DNA from: Candidatus Uhrbacteria bacterium RIFOXYB12_FULL_58_10 | GTDB taxonomy: Bacteria; Patescibacteriota; Patescibacteriia; UBA9934; GWF2-40-263 | Direction of reading: 5' to 3' | Length of the DNA stretch: 37,874 bases | NCBI GenBank assembly: GCA_943354165.1 | Contig: CALRBH010000008.1 | Coordinates: forward strand, 1-37,874 | Shown: piece after piece, positions 2,380-36,420 of the stretch | How the letters are laid out: each line of letters opens with the position of its first letter | Position numbering within the stretch: position 1 is the first letter of the stretch | Translations under genes and position numbers: made by a program | Notes under the pieces: model-generated | Told to the model about the DNA's origin: nothing | Database searches by the model: none | The model's input: only the letters and a program-made list of their open reading frames with translations

Positions 2380-2466
2380 TAGTTAGTAGTAAGTAGTAAG
2401 TAGTTAGTAGGTTTTCCTCCTAAACACCGAACCTTTGACTACTAACTACTTACTACTAACTACTAA
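2380..2466. repeat. Inverted repeat, AGTTAGTAGTA family, copy 1 (rpsP leader)
   Basis: Two facing arms (2381-2409 and about 2438-2466) match as reverse complements at 28 of 29 positions, separated by a ~28-nt spacer (GTTTTCCTCCTAAAC...). Each arm is built from degenerate AGTTAGT/AGTAAGT words. The right arm ends about 10 nt before the rpsP ATG. Further copies lie at 8508-8595 and 22748-22829. It could fold as a long AU-rich hairpin in the rpsP mRNA. Confidence 0.9.
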
Positions 2467-2476
2467 CTCCCGACAC

Positions 2477-2824
2477 ATGGTCTCCATCCGTCTCTCCCGC
2501 GTAGGTCGGCGCAATTCGCCAAGCTACCGCGTGATCGTCGTGCCAAAGCACAAGGACCCTTGGGGCGACGTGATCGAAATCCTCGGTCACTTCAATCCGT
2601 TGAAGAACCCTAAGGAACTCGTCATCGATGCTGAGCGCGTAAAGTACTGGATCGGCCAGGGCGCTGAACCGTCTGACACCGTGTGGAACCTGCTCGTGGA
2701 CGAAAAGATCGTCACCGGCAAGAAACACAACGTCACCCACATCAGCGACACCCGCCACGTCACATTGAACGAGGCAAAGAAGAAGGCAGAGCCAGCTCCT
2801 GCAGCTGAAGCTCCAGCCGCGTAA
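2477..2824 (+). CDS. rpsP: 30S ribosomal protein bS16
   Basis: The 115-aa product starts MVSIRLSRVGRRNSPSYRVIVV and continues with IEILGHFNPL and YWIGQGAEPSDTVWNLL, the conserved core of bS16, which stabilises the 5' domain of 16S rRNA. The C-terminus has an Ala/Pro/Lys-rich tail (KKKAEPAPAAEAPAA), a common extension. The ORF track extends it to a TTG at 2435, but that would translate the inverted repeat; the ATG at 2477 matches the family start. No Shine-Dalgarno is visible: the sequence before the ATG is the pyrimidine-rich arm of the repeat. rpsP and trmD, usually in one operon, are convergent here. Confidence 0.97.
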   Translation: MVSIRLSRVGRRNSPSYRVIVVPKHKDPWGDVIEILGHFNPLKNPKELVIDAERVKYWIGQGAEPSDTVWNLLVDEKIVTGKKHNVTHISDTRHVTLNEAKKKAEPAPAAEAPAA

Positions 2825-7373: not shown

Positions 7374-8510
7374 ATGATCCGTAAACTTTCCCTTACCGCC
7401 CTTACTACCCTTACCGCCCTTACTACCCCTCTCGCCTCCTTCGCGATCGCCCCAAACGATCCGTATGCGGATACGGTCTTTTCTGTCTCAAACCAAGTAC
7501 TCGCTCCCATGAATGCGCTGAGCGCGCCCGATGGTGTGTATGCAGACTTCCTTCAGAAGGATGCAAATGTAACTTTGGACATGGGCGCAGGCGAAGAAGG
7601 AACCGGCGACCTCGTCCTCACGATGAAGCCGTTAAACTTCGGGGCAAGCTATCGAGTAGAGTTCATGGACGCCACCTTCCTTATGTTGGAATCCAAGGGA
7701 GACTTTCTTCCACTGGATTCGGATGAAGAACTGGTGACCTACGCAGGATCAACGCCGTACCGCTATGTACGCATCACGAGTCTTCGGGAAGAAAACTGGC
7801 GTCTGGACTCCATCGAGGCAAAGACGTCCGTTACAGCTCCCATCGTGGAACCAACTCCTTCCCAACCTTCCGAACTTCTCCAACCTCCCAAACCCACCTC
7901 TCCACGCGGTCTCCTCCTGAAGGTCGTGGACGACAAGAACCCAATCACGGAAACGGATTCGATCGTGTACTCGATCGGCGCGGACGGAAAACGTCACGCC
8001 ATGCCATCGTTCAGTGTATTCAGTACGTGGTATGCGGATTTCAACGATCTTTCCTACATCGACATCGACCACTTGGCCGAGTACGCGCTTGGAAAGAACG
8101 TAACGGTGCGGCCGGGGACCTCCCTCGTGAAGATCACGACGGATCCAAAGGTCTATGCCATTGAACCGGGCGGCATCCTCCGCTGGATCACTTCAGAAAC
8201 GATCGCGATCCACTTGTACGGCGCCACATGGGCAAAACGCGTGATAGACGTTCCAGATACGTTCTTCGGAAACTACACGCTAGGAGAACCCATCTTCACG
8301 GAAATTCATCCAAACGGTTCCGTAGGGGTATTACCGGGTGGCGAAGTGGTCTATATCGAAAACGCGACGGCTCACACCATCCCTGGCGAGGTGTACACCG
8401 ACATGCGTTTCAACCCGGACTTCTTTGTCCCTATCAACAATACGCAGGAGGCAATGTATGGACACGGAGCGCCCCTGACGTCTGATCCGAACCTGCGGTT
8501 TCCGTATTAG
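7374..8510 (+). CDS. Secreted surface protein with TDPKVYAI/GGILRWI repeat-type domain
   Basis: 378 aa. A signal peptide (residues 1-24, MIRKLSLTALTTLTALTTPLASFA) precedes a ~120-residue beta-rich domain, a proline-rich linker (about 155-178, PTPSQPSELLQPPKPTSP) and a ~190-residue C-terminal region. That region contains YSIGADGKRHAMPS, TWYADFNDL, GKNVTVRPGTSLVKITTDPKVYAIEPGGILRWI and IDVPDTFFGNY. I recognise this wording as a recurrent secreted module of CPR genomes, with no assigned function known to me. The DNA is odd twice. The signal-peptide core is four 9-bp CTTACCGCC/CTTACTACC units, and the linker is TTCCCAACC-type 9-bp units; both are intergenic repeat words of this genome. Its TAG stop is the first base triplet of an inverted repeat. 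Confidence 0.8.
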   Translation: MIRKLSLTALTTLTALTTPLASFAIAPNDPYADTVFSVSNQVLAPMNALSAPDGVYADFLQKDANVTLDMGAGEEGTGDLVLTMKPLNFGASYRVEFMDATFLMLESKGDFLPLDSDEELVTYAGSTPYRYVRITSLREENWRLDSIEAKTSVTAPIVEPTPSQPSELLQPPKPTSPRGLLLKVVDDKNPITETDSIVYSIGADGKRHAMPSFSVFSTWYADFNDLSYIDIDHLAEYALGKNVTVRPGTSLVKITTDPKVYAIEPGGILRWITSETIAIHLYGATWAKRVIDVPDTFFGNYTLGEPIFTEIHPNGSVGVLPGGEVVYIENATAHTIPGEVYTDMRFNPDFFVPINNTQEAMYGHGAPLTSDPNLRFPY

Positions 8511-8597
8511 TTAGTAGTAAGTAGATAGTAGATAGTAGTGGTATATAAGTACGATTTTTTATCCAATCTACTTACTACTAACTACTCTCTACTAACT
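8508..8597. repeat. Inverted repeat, AGTTAGTAGTA family, copy 2
   Basis: Left arm 8509-8541 (AGTTAGTAGTAAGTAGATAG...) faces right arm 8562-8597 (...CTTACTACTAACTACTCTC), matching as reverse complements at roughly 25 of 31 positions. The spacer is ~20 nt. The stop codon of the preceding gene overlaps the left arm, so the hairpin would form the mRNA 3' end. A small CTTGTAAAAACAAG hairpin follows. Confidence 0.85.
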
Positions 8598-12682: not shown

Positions 12683-13429
12683 CTAGGCTTCGTTCGTATA
12701 CACCGCCTCCACATCATCATGATCATCCAAAAGCTCGATCAACTTATCGAGCTCCGCCTTAGCCGTCCCATCCTCAACCGCCACAGGCGTCTTTGGGATA
12801 TAGCCGATTCGGACATCATCTGTCTTCAATCCTTGGCCGGCAGCTGCCGGGCCCTGCGCCAGGAGCGCATTTACGACCTTTGCGAGGTCATCAGGGGCAC
12901 ATAGGACCTCCAGAGCGTCGTCCGCCCACTTGATGTCGTCAGCTCCAGCGTCAATCATCGACAGCTCAAACGCATCACGGTCTTTCACGCTCGACGCATC
13001 GCCCACGGCAATCATTCCCTTCCGATCGAACATCCAGGCCACCGAACCAGATGAGCCGATCGTCCCGCCGTTCTTGGAGGCGATGATTTTCACTTCCGCG
13101 ACCGAACGGTTCTTGTTATCCGTCACGCAAGCGATCATGAGCGCAATGCCGCCCGGACCGAACCCTTCGTACACGGCCTCTTCGAGCACAACACCGTCTC
13201 CCCCGCCCGTCCCACGATCAATCGCACGCTGAATATTATCGTTCGGCATGTTCATGGCCTTTGCTGCTTCCACCGTCATGCGCAGTTTGAAATTAAACGA
13301 CATGTCTCCCCCGCCGTCCTTGGCCGCGACCGTAATGTTCTTCGCCAACTTCGAAAAAACTCCGGCCTTGGCCCGGTCGGCTTTGCCTTTCTTGAGCTGG
13401 ATGTTATGCCAGTGACTATGCTTTGCCAT
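12683..13429 (-). CDS. yebC: YebC/PmpR family (TACO1-like) protein
   Basis: 248 aa. The start MAKHSHWHNIQLKKGKADRAKAGVFSKLAKNI and the core AIDRGTGGGDG, YEGFGPGGIALMIACVTDNKNRSVAEVKIIASKNGGTIGSSGSVAWMFDRKG are diagnostic. YebC family members were described as transcription regulators; more recent work on relatives links them to translation of difficult sequences such as proline stretches. It is often encoded beside ruvC, and ruvC is nearby here. The ATG lies inside the 3' end of the IVP gene and directly after GGTTNGGGA-type repeats, without a Shine-Dalgarno. Confidence 0.95.
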   Translation of the reverse strand: MAKHSHWHNIQLKKGKADRAKAGVFSKLAKNITVAAKDGGGDMSFNFKLRMTVEAAKAMNMPNDNIQRAIDRGTGGGDGVVLEEAVYEGFGPGGIALMIACVTDNKNRSVAEVKIIASKNGGTIGSSGSVAWMFDRKGMIAVGDASSVKDRDAFELSMIDAGADDIKWADDALEVLCAPDDLAKVVNALLAQGPAAAGQGLKTDDVRIGYIPKTPVAVEDGTAKAELDKLIELLDDHDDVEAVYTNEA

Positions 13430-13847
13430 ACGAGTTTGGTTGGGGAAGTTTGGGAGGTTCGGGAGGTTCGGGGGGTTTGGAAGGTGGCTTTTGATGTTGA
13501 GAATCGATGAGTTGGTTTAGGAGATACGCCGTTCGGTTTTGTTGATCGTCTAGTTTTTGGTATTCGGCGATAGACAGGTATTTCAGATCACGCGAAAACT
13601 CTAGGAGAACTGCACACTCTCTGATAGATCCTTTGGCAATGTCTAAATACCGAATAAAATCAGGCCTAGTCGCTTTCCCTTGCCCCTCAACGATATTCGC
13701 AACAATTGAGACCGACGCACGTCTTAATTGAGATGTGATCCCATACATTTCTTCTTTTGGAAACGTTTGTGTATGAAAATAAATATCTAAGACAAACTTA
13801 TACGCTTCCTTCCACACAACAAGTTTATGATACGGCTGTTCACCCAT
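13416..13847 (-). CDS. Four-helix-bundle protein (23S rRNA-intervening-sequence/IVP family)
   Basis: 143 aa from the Met at 13845-13847. YHKLVVWKEAYKFVLDIYFHTQTFPKEEMYGITSQLRRASVSIVANIVEGQGKATRPDFIRYLDIAKGSIRECAVLLEFSRDLKYL matches the IVP/TIGR02436 four-helix bundle, common in CPR and Bacteroidetes and of unknown role. The track's 16 extra N-terminal residues (MGKFGRFGRNCFTDDF) partly translate the right repeat arm, so I chose the later Met. The C-terminal tail PPSKPPEPPEPPKLPQP is encoded by five GGTTNGGGA-type units and overlaps the yebC start by 14 nt. The gene therefore sits between two facing arms of one repeat family. Confidence 0.88.
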   Translation of the reverse strand: MGEQPYHKLVVWKEAYKFVLDIYFHTQTFPKEEMYGITSQLRRASVSIVANIVEGQGKATRPDFIRYLDIAKGSIRECAVLLEFSRDLKYLSIAEYQKLDDQQNRTAYLLNQLIDSQHQKPPSKPPEPPEPPKLPQPNSYGKA

Positions 13848-13914
13848 AAAATCATCAGTAAAACAGTTCCTCCCAAACCTCCCGAACTTCCCCAACCTCC
13901 CAAACCTTCGAACC
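13438..13914. repeat. Inverted 9-bp-unit repeat (GGTTNGGGA family) flanking the IVP gene
   Basis: Left arm 13438-13485 reads GGTTGGGGA AGTTTGGGA GGTTCGGGA and on. The reverse complement of right arm 13869-13914 reads GGTTTGGGA GGTTGGGGA AGTTCGGGA GGTTTGGGA. Over 29 bp the arms differ at two positions. They are ~380 bp apart with the IVP gene between. The same family forms a compact hairpin before recA. Confidence 0.88.
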
Positions 13915-22747: not shown

Positions 22748-22829
22748 AGTTAGTAGGTAGTAGAAAGTAGTTAGTAAAGCTACGGACCAGCCGTAAAACC
22801 TACTAACTACTAACTACTTTCTACTAACT
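22748..22829. repeat. Inverted repeat, AGTTAGTAGTA family, copy 3
   Basis: Left arm AGTTAGTAGGTAGTAGAAAGTAGTTAGTA faces a right arm whose reverse complement is AGTTAGTAGAAAGTAGTTAGTAGTTAGTA: 29-nt arms, about 4 mismatches, ~25-nt spacer. The nearest gene on either side is more than 100 bp away, unlike the rpsP copy. Confidence 0.85.
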
Positions 22830-25740: not shown

Positions 25741-25844
25741 GGTTTGGGTGGGCAAGAGTGGGCGGAGTGGGCAAGAGTGTTGGAAATTTTTATAAAAAGA
25801 ATTCCTTCACCCTTGCAAACCCTTGCCCACCCCGCAAACCCTCT
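25741..25844. repeat. Inverted repeat, GGGCAAGAGT/GGTTTGGGTGGGC family
   Basis: Left arm 25741-25780 (GGTTTGGGTGGGCAAGAGTGGGCGGAG...) faces right arm 25808-25844 (CACCCTTGCAAACCCTTGCCCACCCCGCAAACC). The arms are imperfect reverse complements built from ~9-10-bp words, with an AT-rich loop (TTGGAAATTTTTATAAAAAG). The hairpin occupies the ftsK-rodZ gap and ends ~13 nt before the rodZ-like ATG. Confidence 0.75.
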
Positions 25845-26625: not shown

Positions 26626-26727
26626 GGTTGGGGATGTTGGGGAAGTCCGGGAGGTTTGGGAGGTTAATTACCTCTCGATCCTATTGTCCTCCCCAACATC
26701 CCAAACCTACCGGACCTCCCAAACCTT
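26626..26727. repeat. Inverted 9-bp-unit repeat (GGTTNGGGA family) before recA
   Basis: Left arm 26626-26665: GGTTGGGGA TGTTGGGGA AGTCCGGGA GGTTTGGGA GGTT. Right arm 26688-26727 reads as its approximate reverse complement (about 29 of 38 pairs, plus G-U). The loop is ~22 nt (AATTACCTCTCGATCC...). The right arm ends 7 nt before the recA ATG. Confidence 0.88.
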
Positions 26728-26734
26728 TCTCGAT

Positions 26735-27808
26735 ATGGCCAAAAACATTACGGAAGACGTCGTCGCGAACCTCCGCTCCAAGGCGGCACTTGAGGCCGTC
26801 TCGCAAATCAAACAGAAGTTCGGTGAGGGCTCCATCATGCGTCTTGGCGAGGCTAAAACCATGGAAGTTGAGTCGGTCACCACCGGCTGCCTTTCGCTCG
26901 ACCTCGCGCTTGGCGTCGGCGGCGTACCACGTGGACGTATTATCGAAATCTACGGTCCGGAATCTTCTGGAAAGACCACCCTCGCCCAGCACATCGTCGC
27001 TGAGGTGCAGAAACTCGGCGGTCTTGCCGCGTATGTGGACGCAGAACATGCACTTGATCCGGAGTACGCGGAAAAGATCGGCGTAAACATCAACGAGCTA
27101 TTCATTTCCCAGCCAGACAACGGCGAGCAGGCGCTCGATATCGTCGAAACGCTCGTTCGTTCGAATGCGGTGGACGTGATCGTCATCGACTCCGTCGCGG
27201 CCCTCACCCCAAAAGCAGAAATCGAAGGCGACATGGGCGACAGCCACATGGGACTCCAGGCTCGCCTCATGAGCCAGGCCCTGCGCAAGCTCGCGGCCAT
27301 CATCAACAAGTCAAAGACCACGGTTATCTTCATCAACCAGATCCGCATGAAGATCGGCGTCATGTTCGGCAACCCAGAAACGACGACTGGTGGGAACGCC
27401 CTCAAGTTCTACGCCTCGGTCCGCATCGAAATCCGCCGCTCCGCGCAGATCAAGCAGGGTGACAAGATCATCGGGAACCGGACCAAGGTAAAGATCGTAA
27501 AGAACAAGGTCGCTCCCCCGTTCCGGGTGTGCGAGTTCGACATCATGTACAACGAAGGTATCTCCATCGCCGGCGATCTACTCGATGTAGGCGTTCCCGC
27601 CGGCGCTATTGGCAAGAGTGGGAACAGTTACACGTTCGGTGAGGAGAAGCTCGGGCTTGGACGCGAGGCGGCGAAGCAGCATTTGCGTGAGAATCCGAAG
27701 CTTATGAAGGCGGTGCGCAAAGAAATCGAAAAGCGCATAAAGGACGGCGTCCTCGAGGACACGAGTGAGCCGACTTCTGACGAAGTTCCACCGCCATCAG
27801 TGGAATAA
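26735..27808 (+). CDS. recA: Recombinase RecA
   Basis: 357 aa from the ATG at 26735. Walker [13 protein letters not shown], Walker [37 protein letters not shown], loop L2 region [36 protein letters not shown], and the acidic tail [16 protein letters not shown] are all present. RecA forms the strand-exchange filament and triggers LexA cleavage where LexA exists; no LexA-type box was seen upstream. The leader is instead a long repeat hairpin, and there is no Shine-Dalgarno. The track's start 17 codons upstream translates the repeat arm and is rejected. Confidence 0.98.
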
Positions 27809-33894: not shown

Positions 33895-36420
33895 TTAGTA
33901 CACGATAAACGTTACCTTCCCGCCCGGAATGGTGCGACCGGAGAACCGATAGCCATTCGTCACCCTTCCGATGTCGTTAATGGTGATGATCGGACCATAT
34001 GACGTTCCTTCGGAAGGAGCGGGAGCCGGAAGGGCGATCGGTCGGCTCACAGGGGCCGATGTCTTGGCTGATGGGGTCGATGTCTTGGCTGATGGGGTCG
34101 ATGTCTTGGCTGATGGGGCCGCAGGCTCCCTTACTGGCACGAACACGACCTGTGGCGCCGGACACACAGGAGTGGAAACAGGGACGGATGCCTCCGGCTC
34201 CGGACATGCGGGAACAACCAGCGACTCCGGACACTGGAACACCACCGGCGGACGCGTCGCAAGCTTCACGCGCTCCCCCGTCATCTCATTGCCGCGCTGC
34301 GTGGTCCCGACCGGCATGAATGTGTACACCGTACCCGTCGTAAGGCCGTCGATGATAACTGAGTGGGATTCCGTAAGCTGACCGTCGAGTACGGTTGAAG
34401 TGGCGAACCCGAAATTAGGCGATCCGCTGTTCACAATCGGGTCGAACGTTCCGTAGACGACCCGTGAGGTCGAGTTCGGGTAGGAGCTCCAGGAGACGAT
34501 AACGGAATCGCCATCCACCTGCGTCACATCAACATCGTAAAGACGTTCTGGGAAGGATACGGAACCTCCTCCCCCGCCGCTTCCAGGGACGCAGGCGATC
34601 CCATCATCGATCACCACAGCGAACACCACGCGCTCCATGATGTTTCCGGAGAGATCCTTCGCATACACGATGACGGGCACCGCTTCCCCATCCGTAAAGT
34701 TCGAGGCCGGATCGATCGTAAAGGTGAAATCCGCCGGCGATCCCGTCACGTCGGTGGTGTCTCCAAGATAGTTCCCTCCGTTGAAATCGAGAGAGCTGGC
34801 GAACGTAATCTTGGTGCCGGTCGTCGTTACGGACCCTGCCCCGCCTCCGTTGGTATAATAGTCCCCGTTCACGAACACCACGACGTTCGAAAGATTCACC
34901 CCCGTCCCATTATCTTTTACATGAAAGAGAATGTTGGTCGTAGAGGTGATCGTCCCGTCGTTGCTCGGGCTCGTCCCGTCCACGAACGGTGCGTCGCTGT
35001 CGGAAGTGGAAAACGTCCAGACGTCCGTGACCATGGTGTTGCCAACCACGTCCTCACAATCAAACGCGGAAATGGACACGGTTTCATTCTGCGCGAAGTT
35101 ACTCGCTGGATTGATCACGTACTGCACGCCGAAATCCACCAGTGTCGCCGCCACTTCCGGATCAGTGGAATCAAACGTCGTGAGCGCAAACGATGGTGAT
35201 GAAACGTTGAACTGACAGCTCGCGGTCACGACCCCGGTCCCGGAAACCGTGCCCGGGAAGGTCTTCTTGTCGTGCACAATGACGGTGATGTTTGTGGAAA
35301 TGCTGTTCCCTGTGCTCGATCGCGTTGGTGTTTCGCTCACGACCTGCGGAGGCACCGTGTCCGCCTCGGTGGTAAACGTGAACGACTTTGGATTCATCGT
35401 GTTCGGCCCATTGGCATCCCCGAGCTGGTTCTGCGTTGGCGAGGCCAGATCGCGGAAGCCGGTGATGTCGATGGTGTAGGCGGTGTTATAGAGCCAGTTG
35501 CGCGTATCACTCCCGATGCCGAGCGGACTTGGCGGATTCACGGTCACCCCACACAGGTTTGTGCCCCACACGCCAGAACAGACATAAGCGTCGAACGCCG
35601 TCATATCATCAGCGCCGCCGTCGTCGTCTGCCGTAATGACGCCAGGGGGTGTCGTGGTGCTCACCCCGGTTCCGACGCCGACGTTATCGCCTTCCCCGTT
35701 CTTGGTATCGCGCAGGTCAAACGTATAATTCGACGAAACGGAAACCGCCGTCGCCGCGTTCGCTGGCGATGGATTCTCCGCGAACGGTTTAATCGTATCT
35801 GCCCAAAGGTGCAGACTGAAATCTTCTTCGTCATCGAGAATGTCGAGACCGGAAAGCGAGATGTTCGACTCCGTGGTCGCTCCAATGGTCCCAACGTTCA
35901 CGTCGAGCGTGCTCGGCGTACCGGTTGCATACGCGGCTTCCCCTGGCGCATCCACCGTCCAGGTGTTGGAACCAAAGATCCCGGTGCCGCTGGACGTCCC
36001 GCTGGTCCGGAACCCCGTAAGATTCACGCGCCCGCCGGAAATGGTCGCCCCAGCGTAGTTTGGAAAATACGTTCCATTGGTGAGCACGGAAGCGGTGAGC
36101 TTGGCGACGTTGTAATCCACCCAAATATTCGCCGCATCCGTCCCGCCGGAGACGATGCGCATGGTCGTCGTGAAGGATTGGCCGACGTAGTAATAGTTGA
36201 GGTCGGTCGTGACGCCCGTGCCGCCATCGCCTGTGTTGTCCCCGCCCGTGGTCGGCGATGTAGTGAGTTCGAAGGTATCGGCCCCGACAGGAGCAGCGGC
36301 TTGGGCAGAGGCTGACGCAAACGACAAAGAGCAAACGACAAACGACAAAGAAATCCAAAACGACAAACGGGTGAAAGGTTTGATGTTTGAGTTCTTTTTT
36401 TGTCCGTTCAACTTTTCCAT
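33895..36420 (-). CDS. Large secreted surface protein with cohesin-like, Ig-like and FN3-like domains
   Basis: 841 aa. Signal peptide ~1-42 (core SFWISLSFVVCSLSFASASAQA). Residues ~48-205 resemble a cohesin-type sandwich (VGQSFTTTMRIVSGGTDAANIWVDYNVAKLTASV...FPNYAG...GRVNLTGF). Then come Big_5/Ig-like domains to ~590 (repeated DxxxPxVxxxxP starts, GN ends) and an FN3-like unit (VTQVDGDSVIVSWSSYPNSTSRVVYG...IIDGLTTGTVYTF, ~610-700). A Cys/Pro-rich stretch, three PSAKTST repeats and a half Ig fold end at GGKVTFIVY. No anchor of its own; the next gene has membrane helices. The signal-peptide core is encoded by TTTGTCGTT repeats. No enzymatic motif seen. Confidence 0.8.
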   Translation of the reverse strand: MEKLNGQKKNSNIKPFTRLSFWISLSFVVCSLSFASASAQAAAPVGADTFELTTSPTTGGDNTGDGGTGVTTDLNYYYVGQSFTTTMRIVSGGTDAANIWVDYNVAKLTASVLTNGTYFPNYAGATISGGRVNLTGFRTSGTSSGTGIFGSNTWTVDAPGEAAYATGTPSTLDVNVGTIGATTESNISLSGLDILDDEEDFSLHLWADTIKPFAENPSPANAATAVSVSSNYTFDLRDTKNGEGDNVGVGTGVSTTTPPGVITADDDGGADDMTAFDAYVCSGVWGTNLCGVTVNPPSPLGIGSDTRNWLYNTAYTIDITGFRDLASPTQNQLGDANGPNTMNPKSFTFTTEADTVPPQVVSETPTRSSTGNSISTNITVIVHDKKTFPGTVSGTGVVTASCQFNVSSPSFALTTFDSTDPEVAATLVDFGVQYVINPASNFAQNETVSISAFDCEDVVGNTMVTDVWTFSTSDSDAPFVDGTSPSNDGTITSTTNILFHVKDNGTGVNLSNVVVFVNGDYYTNGGGAGSVTTTGTKITFASSLDFNGGNYLGDTTDVTGSPADFTFTIDPASNFTDGEAVPVIVYAKDLSGNIMERVVFAVVIDDGIACVPGSGGGGGSVSFPERLYDVDVTQVDGDSVIVSWSSYPNSTSRVVYGTFDPIVNSGSPNFGFATSTVLDGQLTESHSVIIDGLTTGTVYTFMPVGTTQRGNEMTGERVKLATRPPVVFQCPESLVVPACPEPEASVPVSTPVCPAPQVVFVPVREPAAPSAKTSTPSAKTSTPSAKTSAPVSRPIALPAPAPSEGTSYGPIITINDIGRVTNGYRFSGRTIPGGKVTFIVY
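34058..34120. repeat. Tandem repeat, 3 x 21 bp, inside the surface protein gene
   Basis: GATGTCTTGGCTGATGGGGTC is repeated three times (the last with one change), encoding SAKTSTP-type units in the linker before the C-terminal half Ig fold. The near-identity of the copies suggests recent expansion. Confidence 0.92.

Follow-up and report, generated by a model that had tools for sequence, protein, structure and literature searches.

AGTAG hairpin repeats at operon junctions of a Patescibacteria genome are probably miniatures of an IVP-encoding hairpin element

The AGTAG repeats dispersed in the genome of Candidatus Uhrbacteria bacterium RIFOXYB12_FULL_58_10 are probably a miniature, non-autonomous form of a hairpin element that carries an IVP gene (23S_rRNA_IVP, Pfam PF05635) and sits at operon junctions. 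The association of the repeats with IVP genes, their placement, their orientation and the coupling between IVP proteins and arms were observed. We conclude that the repeats are an intergenic cousin of the rRNA intervening sequences (IVS).

The window, i.e. the whole stretch of DNA analysed, comprises 37 874 nucleotides of contig CALRBH010000008.1. The heptamer pattern AG NN AGT was matched 18 times in it, compared with 0.01 times in dinucleotide shuffles. The three copies claimed in the first-pass annotation were all found, each as a facing pair of arms:

2381..2410 (+): left arm of the rpsP element, an AGTAG miniature upstream of rpsP (match to the heptamer pattern)
2411..2438: loop (spacer) of the rpsP element, 28 nt
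2439..2468 (-): facing right arm of the rpsP element
2478..2824 (+): rpsP (ribosomal protein S16) frame adjoining the element (open reading frame and translation)
8509..8538 (+): second AGTAG element, left arm
8568..8597 (-): second AGTAG element, right arm
22748..22777 (+): third AGTAG element, left arm, with a degenerate innermost unit
22800..22829 (-): third AGTAG element, right arm

The right arm of the rpsP element is separated by 9 nt from the rpsP ATG at 2478. The name rpsP is that of the first-pass annotation and was based on the reading frame and its translation. The AG of the second left arm finishes the TAG stop of the gene at 7374-8510. Spacers of the three copies measure 28, 29 and 22 nt, respectively. 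Arms are mismatched at one position in 30 in the rpsP copy and at five in 30 in each of the other two. Folded as RNA and compared with shuffles, the copies gave z values of -7.6, -4.6 and -5.6, corresponding to a long stem of the facing arms. An Rfam scan of the window returned 16S rRNA and tRNAs only, and the repeats had no match.

Each arm consists of four heptamers AG NN AGT, followed by AG. An AGTAG core therefore recurs every 7 bp, and the dinucleotide between cores is variable, mostly A/T. The 852 500-base genome contains 92 intact four-unit arms (48 forward and 44 reverse), and none was found with the reversed pattern used as a control. The loci examined were stretches around matches, together with some sample stretches of the genome. 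Over the 852 kb, about 46 facing pairs were counted and 45 were resolved; a contig-end locus present twice in the list of pairs was entered once. Only two arms have a badly decayed partner (L050:827 and L070:1962). The element is thus dispersed in facing arms, as had been claimed, and since single arms are this rare, the many unpaired arms named in the first-pass annotation as evidence against its reading were not found. Spacers are 6 to 53 nt long, with a single case of 376 nt. The same AGTAG element was seen in opposite orientation at two contig ends (G000 C12:38-139 and C19:36-130; L068 and L049), where the assembly was probably broken at the palindrome.

It had also been proposed that the two arms of a copy match one another through arm-to-arm correction, or through selection keeping them alike. 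The single mismatch of the rpsP copy and the pairing of the invariant cores agree with this proposal. However, agreement at the eight variable positions is below that of random re-pairing: in the 44 pairs compared, 165 of 352 positions agree between facing arms, vs 206±8 for random pairs, and none of 5000 re-pairings was as low. Typically, TA is found opposite AT. Complementarity at the variable positions is higher between loci than within a locus, and only the invariant AGTAG cores pair. Because facing arms are less alike than randomly paired ones, arm-to-arm correction was rejected, and the proposal as a whole is very improbable. Selection for pairing of the AGTAG cores alone may still operate. 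The anti-Shine-Dalgarno role suggested for CCTCCT in the rpsP loop is without support, since CCTCC occurs in one of 45 spacers; CCTCCT was rejected as such a signal, being confined to the rpsP copy and found in no other spacer.

Genes around the elements were called with a codon-usage model made for the present analysis, rather than with a published gene finder. By these calls, 38 of the 45 AGTAG elements have co-directional genes on both sides. The element usually adjoins the upstream stop codon directly, and in 13 cases the gene ends with a TAG to which the flank contributes the T and the element the AG. Downstream, the start codon is often within about 20 nt, usually with only a few bases before the ATG, and most of these gaps are without a Shine-Dalgarno sequence when judged by eye. 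Since 7 is not divisible by 3, ribosomes that enter an arm meet stops in every frame. Adjoining genes encode MreB, ribosome recycling factor, a class II tRNA synthetase (labelled proS on neighbourhood grounds), EF-Ts, EF-G, peptidyl-tRNA hydrolase, L7/L12, L1, LexA, and the gamma and beta subunits of ATP synthase. No target duplication was seen by eye in the flanks of the copies. This placement at stop/start junctions, like the tie to IVP described below, had not been seen in the first-pass annotation, one IVP gene being present in the window.

The sole AGTAG element with a long spacer (376 nt; L056:2413-2848, i.e. G000 C1:125612-126040) encloses an intact gene of 121 aa. Its product matches Pfam 23S_rRNA_IVP PF05635 (E 2.5e-38) and the four-helix bundle family TIGR02436, and has 2gsc and 2rld as solved structural relatives. 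The window itself holds a second full-length element and miniatures with two further words:

13416..13895 (-): IVP gene, PF05635/TIGR02436, four-helix bundle (Pfam E 3.4e-34, NCBIfam E 2.7e-32)
13438..13484 (+): arm of the window IVP element, 9-nt word of GGTTTGGGA type (inverted-repeat z 17.5)
13869..13906 (-): facing arm of the window IVP element
25741..25840: miniature carrying the third word GTGGGCAAG, with arms at 25741-25775 and at 25812-25840
26626..26725: miniature with the same 9-nt word as the window IVP element (arms 26626-26663 and 26688-26725)

The 9-nt arm unit of the window IVP copy is GGGAGGTTT, whereas the AGTAG unit is of 7 nt. The miniature at 26626-26725 ends 9 nt ahead of the start of a RecA-like gene at 26735, and the word of the miniature at 25741-25840 matches the IVP element at G000 C10:11318. 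No two of the six IVP genes in this genome have the same arm word, and the window alone contains miniatures with three of these words.

Flanks of IVP genes were tested for facing tandem-unit arms at 45 loci, which correspond to 44 genes as one gene had been entered twice; 41 tests were significant. Such arms were found at 40 of the 44 IVP genes of the family, vs one of 189 control genes of 300-600 nt (Fisher p 6e-40). In a wider set including other phyla, 63 of 67 IVP loci have them. The named-genome subset, i.e. the best IVP loci of genomes reached through the facing-AGTAG scan, gave 22 of 24, using the recorded gene strands. Arm units of IVP elements are mostly of 7 nt, also of 8 to 10 nt. 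Where both neighbouring genes could be called, 16 of 18 full-length IVP elements lie between co-directional genes, with the IVP gene in the sense of the host genes.

The atpA-atpG, atpG-atpD and frr-proS junctions were compared across the family, in as many as 29 further genomes. Gap lengths are bimodal (n = 81): 48 gaps are of at most 12 nt, three of 13-29 nt and 30 of at least 30 nt. The short gaps, typically "TAA T ATG", are empty sites in the relatives. Among the 30 long gaps, 17 fold at z below -3, and the palindromes differ widely in sequence; among them are heptamers of other words in G001, G004 and G011, AGGTGG and ACAGAT units in G022, and GTGATGG in G392. Unlike palindromes at the same tight junctions indicate that different hairpins were received independently in different lineages. 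As the comparison covers family-level relatives, movement is inferred. Operon junctions only a few bases long between essential genes, such as those of the ATP synthase operon, thus repeatedly take inserts of about 30 to 180 nt, many of which are hairpins. This is relevant to how translation starts and mRNA is processed in Patescibacteria.

Filled junctions go with IVP genes. They make up 23 of 37 junctions in genomes with at least two IVP genes and seven of 44 in the rest (p 2e-5), and their number is correlated with IVP copy number (Spearman 0.53, p 0.003). In G392, an IVP gene lies directly downstream of atpG, inside the atpG-atpD junction. Some filled junctions occur in genomes without PF05635 (G393, G317, G020 and G021). 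The proportion of 9-mers common to junction inserts and IVP arms is 0.124 within a genome and 0.011 between genomes (0/5000). In a test of the MITE type, short and full-length elements of the same genome were therefore found to have inverted-repeat words in common.

Arms are also coupled to the protein. In 46 of 62 cases, an IVP protein and its closest counterpart in a different genome have arm units of equal length, where 26 were expected (0/2000). A maximum-likelihood tree of the IVP proteins, poorly resolved in places, requires 16 changes of unit length, compared with 22.5 when shuffled (0/200). Protein similarity and arm sequence similarity are weakly correlated (0.18, p 0.001), and restriction of the AGTAG word to one IVP clade was not significant (p 0.32).

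Spacers of the AGTAG copies are alike (24 similar pairs vs 0.4 expected) and lie at unrelated flanks, which indicates that the element was copied whole, arms together with loop. Of 39 spacers read in the direction of host transcription, 30 resemble the common form GGTTT..CTACGAA, a number that none of 300 random orientations reached; the kinship among copies makes the exact significance soft. This orientation with transcription is consistent with action or movement of the element at the RNA level. The possibility that the miniatures are plain internal deletions of the IVP element was rejected, since the spacers and the ends of the IVP interior are no more alike than expected.

Facing AGTAG heptamers occur in many phyla among the matches listed from genome contigs. 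Examples are Bacteroides sp. 519, Ruminococcus flavefaciens ND2009, Mesorhizobium, Sediminibacterium, acidobacteria, planctomycetes and other Patescibacteria. The flavour of the dinucleotide differs from genome to genome among these listed matches. PF05635 genes are present in 32 of 35 such genomes and in none of 14 well-known control genomes. The baseline in the class of the window is 248 of 381, so that presence of PF05635 alone proves little there. In one member of this class (G107), the element is identical, letter for letter, to the one in a Candidatus Buchananbacteria contig, which makes ABY1 the probable class. Pairs of facing AGTAG heptamers were also seen in a few viral contigs of IMG/VR (L181-L186).

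A mechanism can be proposed on these grounds. The element would travel in the transcript of the host operon and fold into a stem of about 30 bp. It would be tolerated because both reading frames are left whole when it lies between cistrons. By analogy with the rRNA intervening sequences, RNase III may trim it. IVP would recognise the units of its own arms, whether in cis or in trans, and would aid the making of new copies; the short copies would be satellites of IVP as a result of this aided copying. We infer three features here, namely mobility of the element, binding of IVP to the arms and excision by RNase III.

Three other explanations were weighed against the reading of the repeats as miniatures of an IVP element. 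IVP genes could be parasites of hairpin loops: the palindromes would arise otherwise and the gene would insert into the loop, as IVS do in 23S rRNA helices. IVS are known to replace the loops of rRNA helices (PMC4990558), and the AGTAG family counts about 45 gene-less copies for one with a gene. However, the six IVP genes have six arm words and are not concentrated in the most numerous family. Moreover, arm unit length tracks the IVP protein tree, which speaks against IVP as a casual passenger of ready-made hairpins, and this explanation is rather unlikely. It is also quite unlikely that the repeats are host regulatory elements, whose heptad arrays would bind a regulator, as DNA or RNA, and control the translation or transcription of some 45 operons. 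Their position a few nucleotides before start codons, usually without a Shine-Dalgarno sequence and beside essential genes, would suit such a role, as would their orientation with transcription, and a similar proposal was made for the TAACTGA repeats (PMC4679880). Yet the same genes have no element, or unrelated palindromes, in relatives, gene functions are mixed, the word differs by genome and full-length copies carry their own gene. Some sites may have been adopted for regulation later.

A REP/REPIN-type element moved by a RAYT (Y1 tyrosine transposase) would likewise consist of intergenic palindromes with GTAG words and paired arms, as satellites of a single-gene driver. Y1_Tnp (PF01797) had no match in the assembly, which is 98% complete, whereas the same search was positive in five of 14 controls, and this explanation is extremely improbable. 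REPIN/RAYT is nevertheless the nearest functional analogue of the miniature IVP element (PMC3116915), as it combines many short intergenic palindromic satellites with a single-gene driver in the same genome. It differs in its driver, which here is IVP instead of a Y1 transposase, and the present elements have tandem-unit arms and a junction-specific placement.

The present elements also resemble the IVS of 23S rRNA, e.g. in Coxiella and Leptospira, which are stem-loops with an S23/IVP gene in the loop and are cut out by RNase III; their mobility was suggested and not demonstrated (PMC4990558). In both systems, a stem with inverted ends (28 bp in the Coxiella IVS (PMC4990558), about 30 bp in AGTAG elements) has a PF05635 gene in its loop and is inserted into transcribed DNA where a cut in the RNA does no harm. 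The likeness in gene content is limited to the full-length copies, the short ones being gene-less. Unlike IVS, the present elements lie between protein-coding genes and not in the 23S rRNA gene, have arms of tandem 7-10-nt units and have gene-less copies dispersed genome-wide. The TAACTGA repeats described by MacGregor in Beggiatoaceae are also heptamers found just ahead of starts, overlapping upstream stops, with stops in three frames, mostly without a Shine-Dalgarno sequence and at essential genes (PMC4679880). They are exact direct repeats, almost never inverted, and a link to IVP was not reported (PMC4679880), whereas AGTAG arms are facing and variable at two of seven positions.

Avd is regarded as a homologue of the PF05635 proteins (PMC10053308), and a weak bAvd match was obtained in the Pfam search. 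In contrast to diversity-generating retroelements, the strong IVP loci have no adjoining reverse transcriptase, judging from coordinates; only weak, Avd-like matches adjoin RVT_1 genes. Reverse transcriptase as an obligatory partner of IVP was rejected, as G019 has eight IVP genes and no RVT_1. No description of intergenic IVP elements or of their miniatures was found in the literature searched, a set that excludes preprints and most subscription journals.

The finding ties the role of the IVP family to the origin of genome-specific heptamer repeats in bacteria. A broader claim is that mobile hairpins driven by IVP (S23, Avd-like) proteins form a widespread class in bacteria that had gone unrecognised. 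Each IVP would recognise an arm unit of its own, of 7 to 10 nt, move at the RNA level into stop/start junctions in an orientation given by host transcription, and mobilise gene-less satellites. Taken whole, this claim has about an even chance of being right. If true, it would account both for what the IVP family does and for where many genome-specific heptamer repeats in different phyla come from, and the rRNA intervening sequences would be members of the class that landed in rRNA. The finding itself predicts that each IVP binds arms of its own unit length, and that short copies are strain-variable only where such an IVP is present.

Several further arrays and palindromes were recorded. The atp and frr-proS junctions at L207, L212, L222 and L243 contain other palindromes (GTCATTGCGAGC.., CTTCGACAGGCTCAG.. 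and CTCCC/GGGAG-rich). Some genomes with these have no PF05635 gene, and they may be a second kind of junction hairpin. At L343 (Mesorhizobium hawassense, G407), more than 10 pure AGTAGGC heptamers precede an IVP gene, hinting that arms can expand by slippage. In the window, tandem CCCTTACCG/CCCTTACTA units were found at 7390-7428, in the N-terminal, signal-peptide-like coding part of the gene at 7374-8510. The IVP element at G000 C2:71601 has this word in its arms, and the coding part of the gene may thus include a captured arm. CAAACGA units, the word of the IVP element at G000 C18:6803, were found at 36318-36369, in the N-terminal coding part of the gene at 33895-36420 (minus strand).
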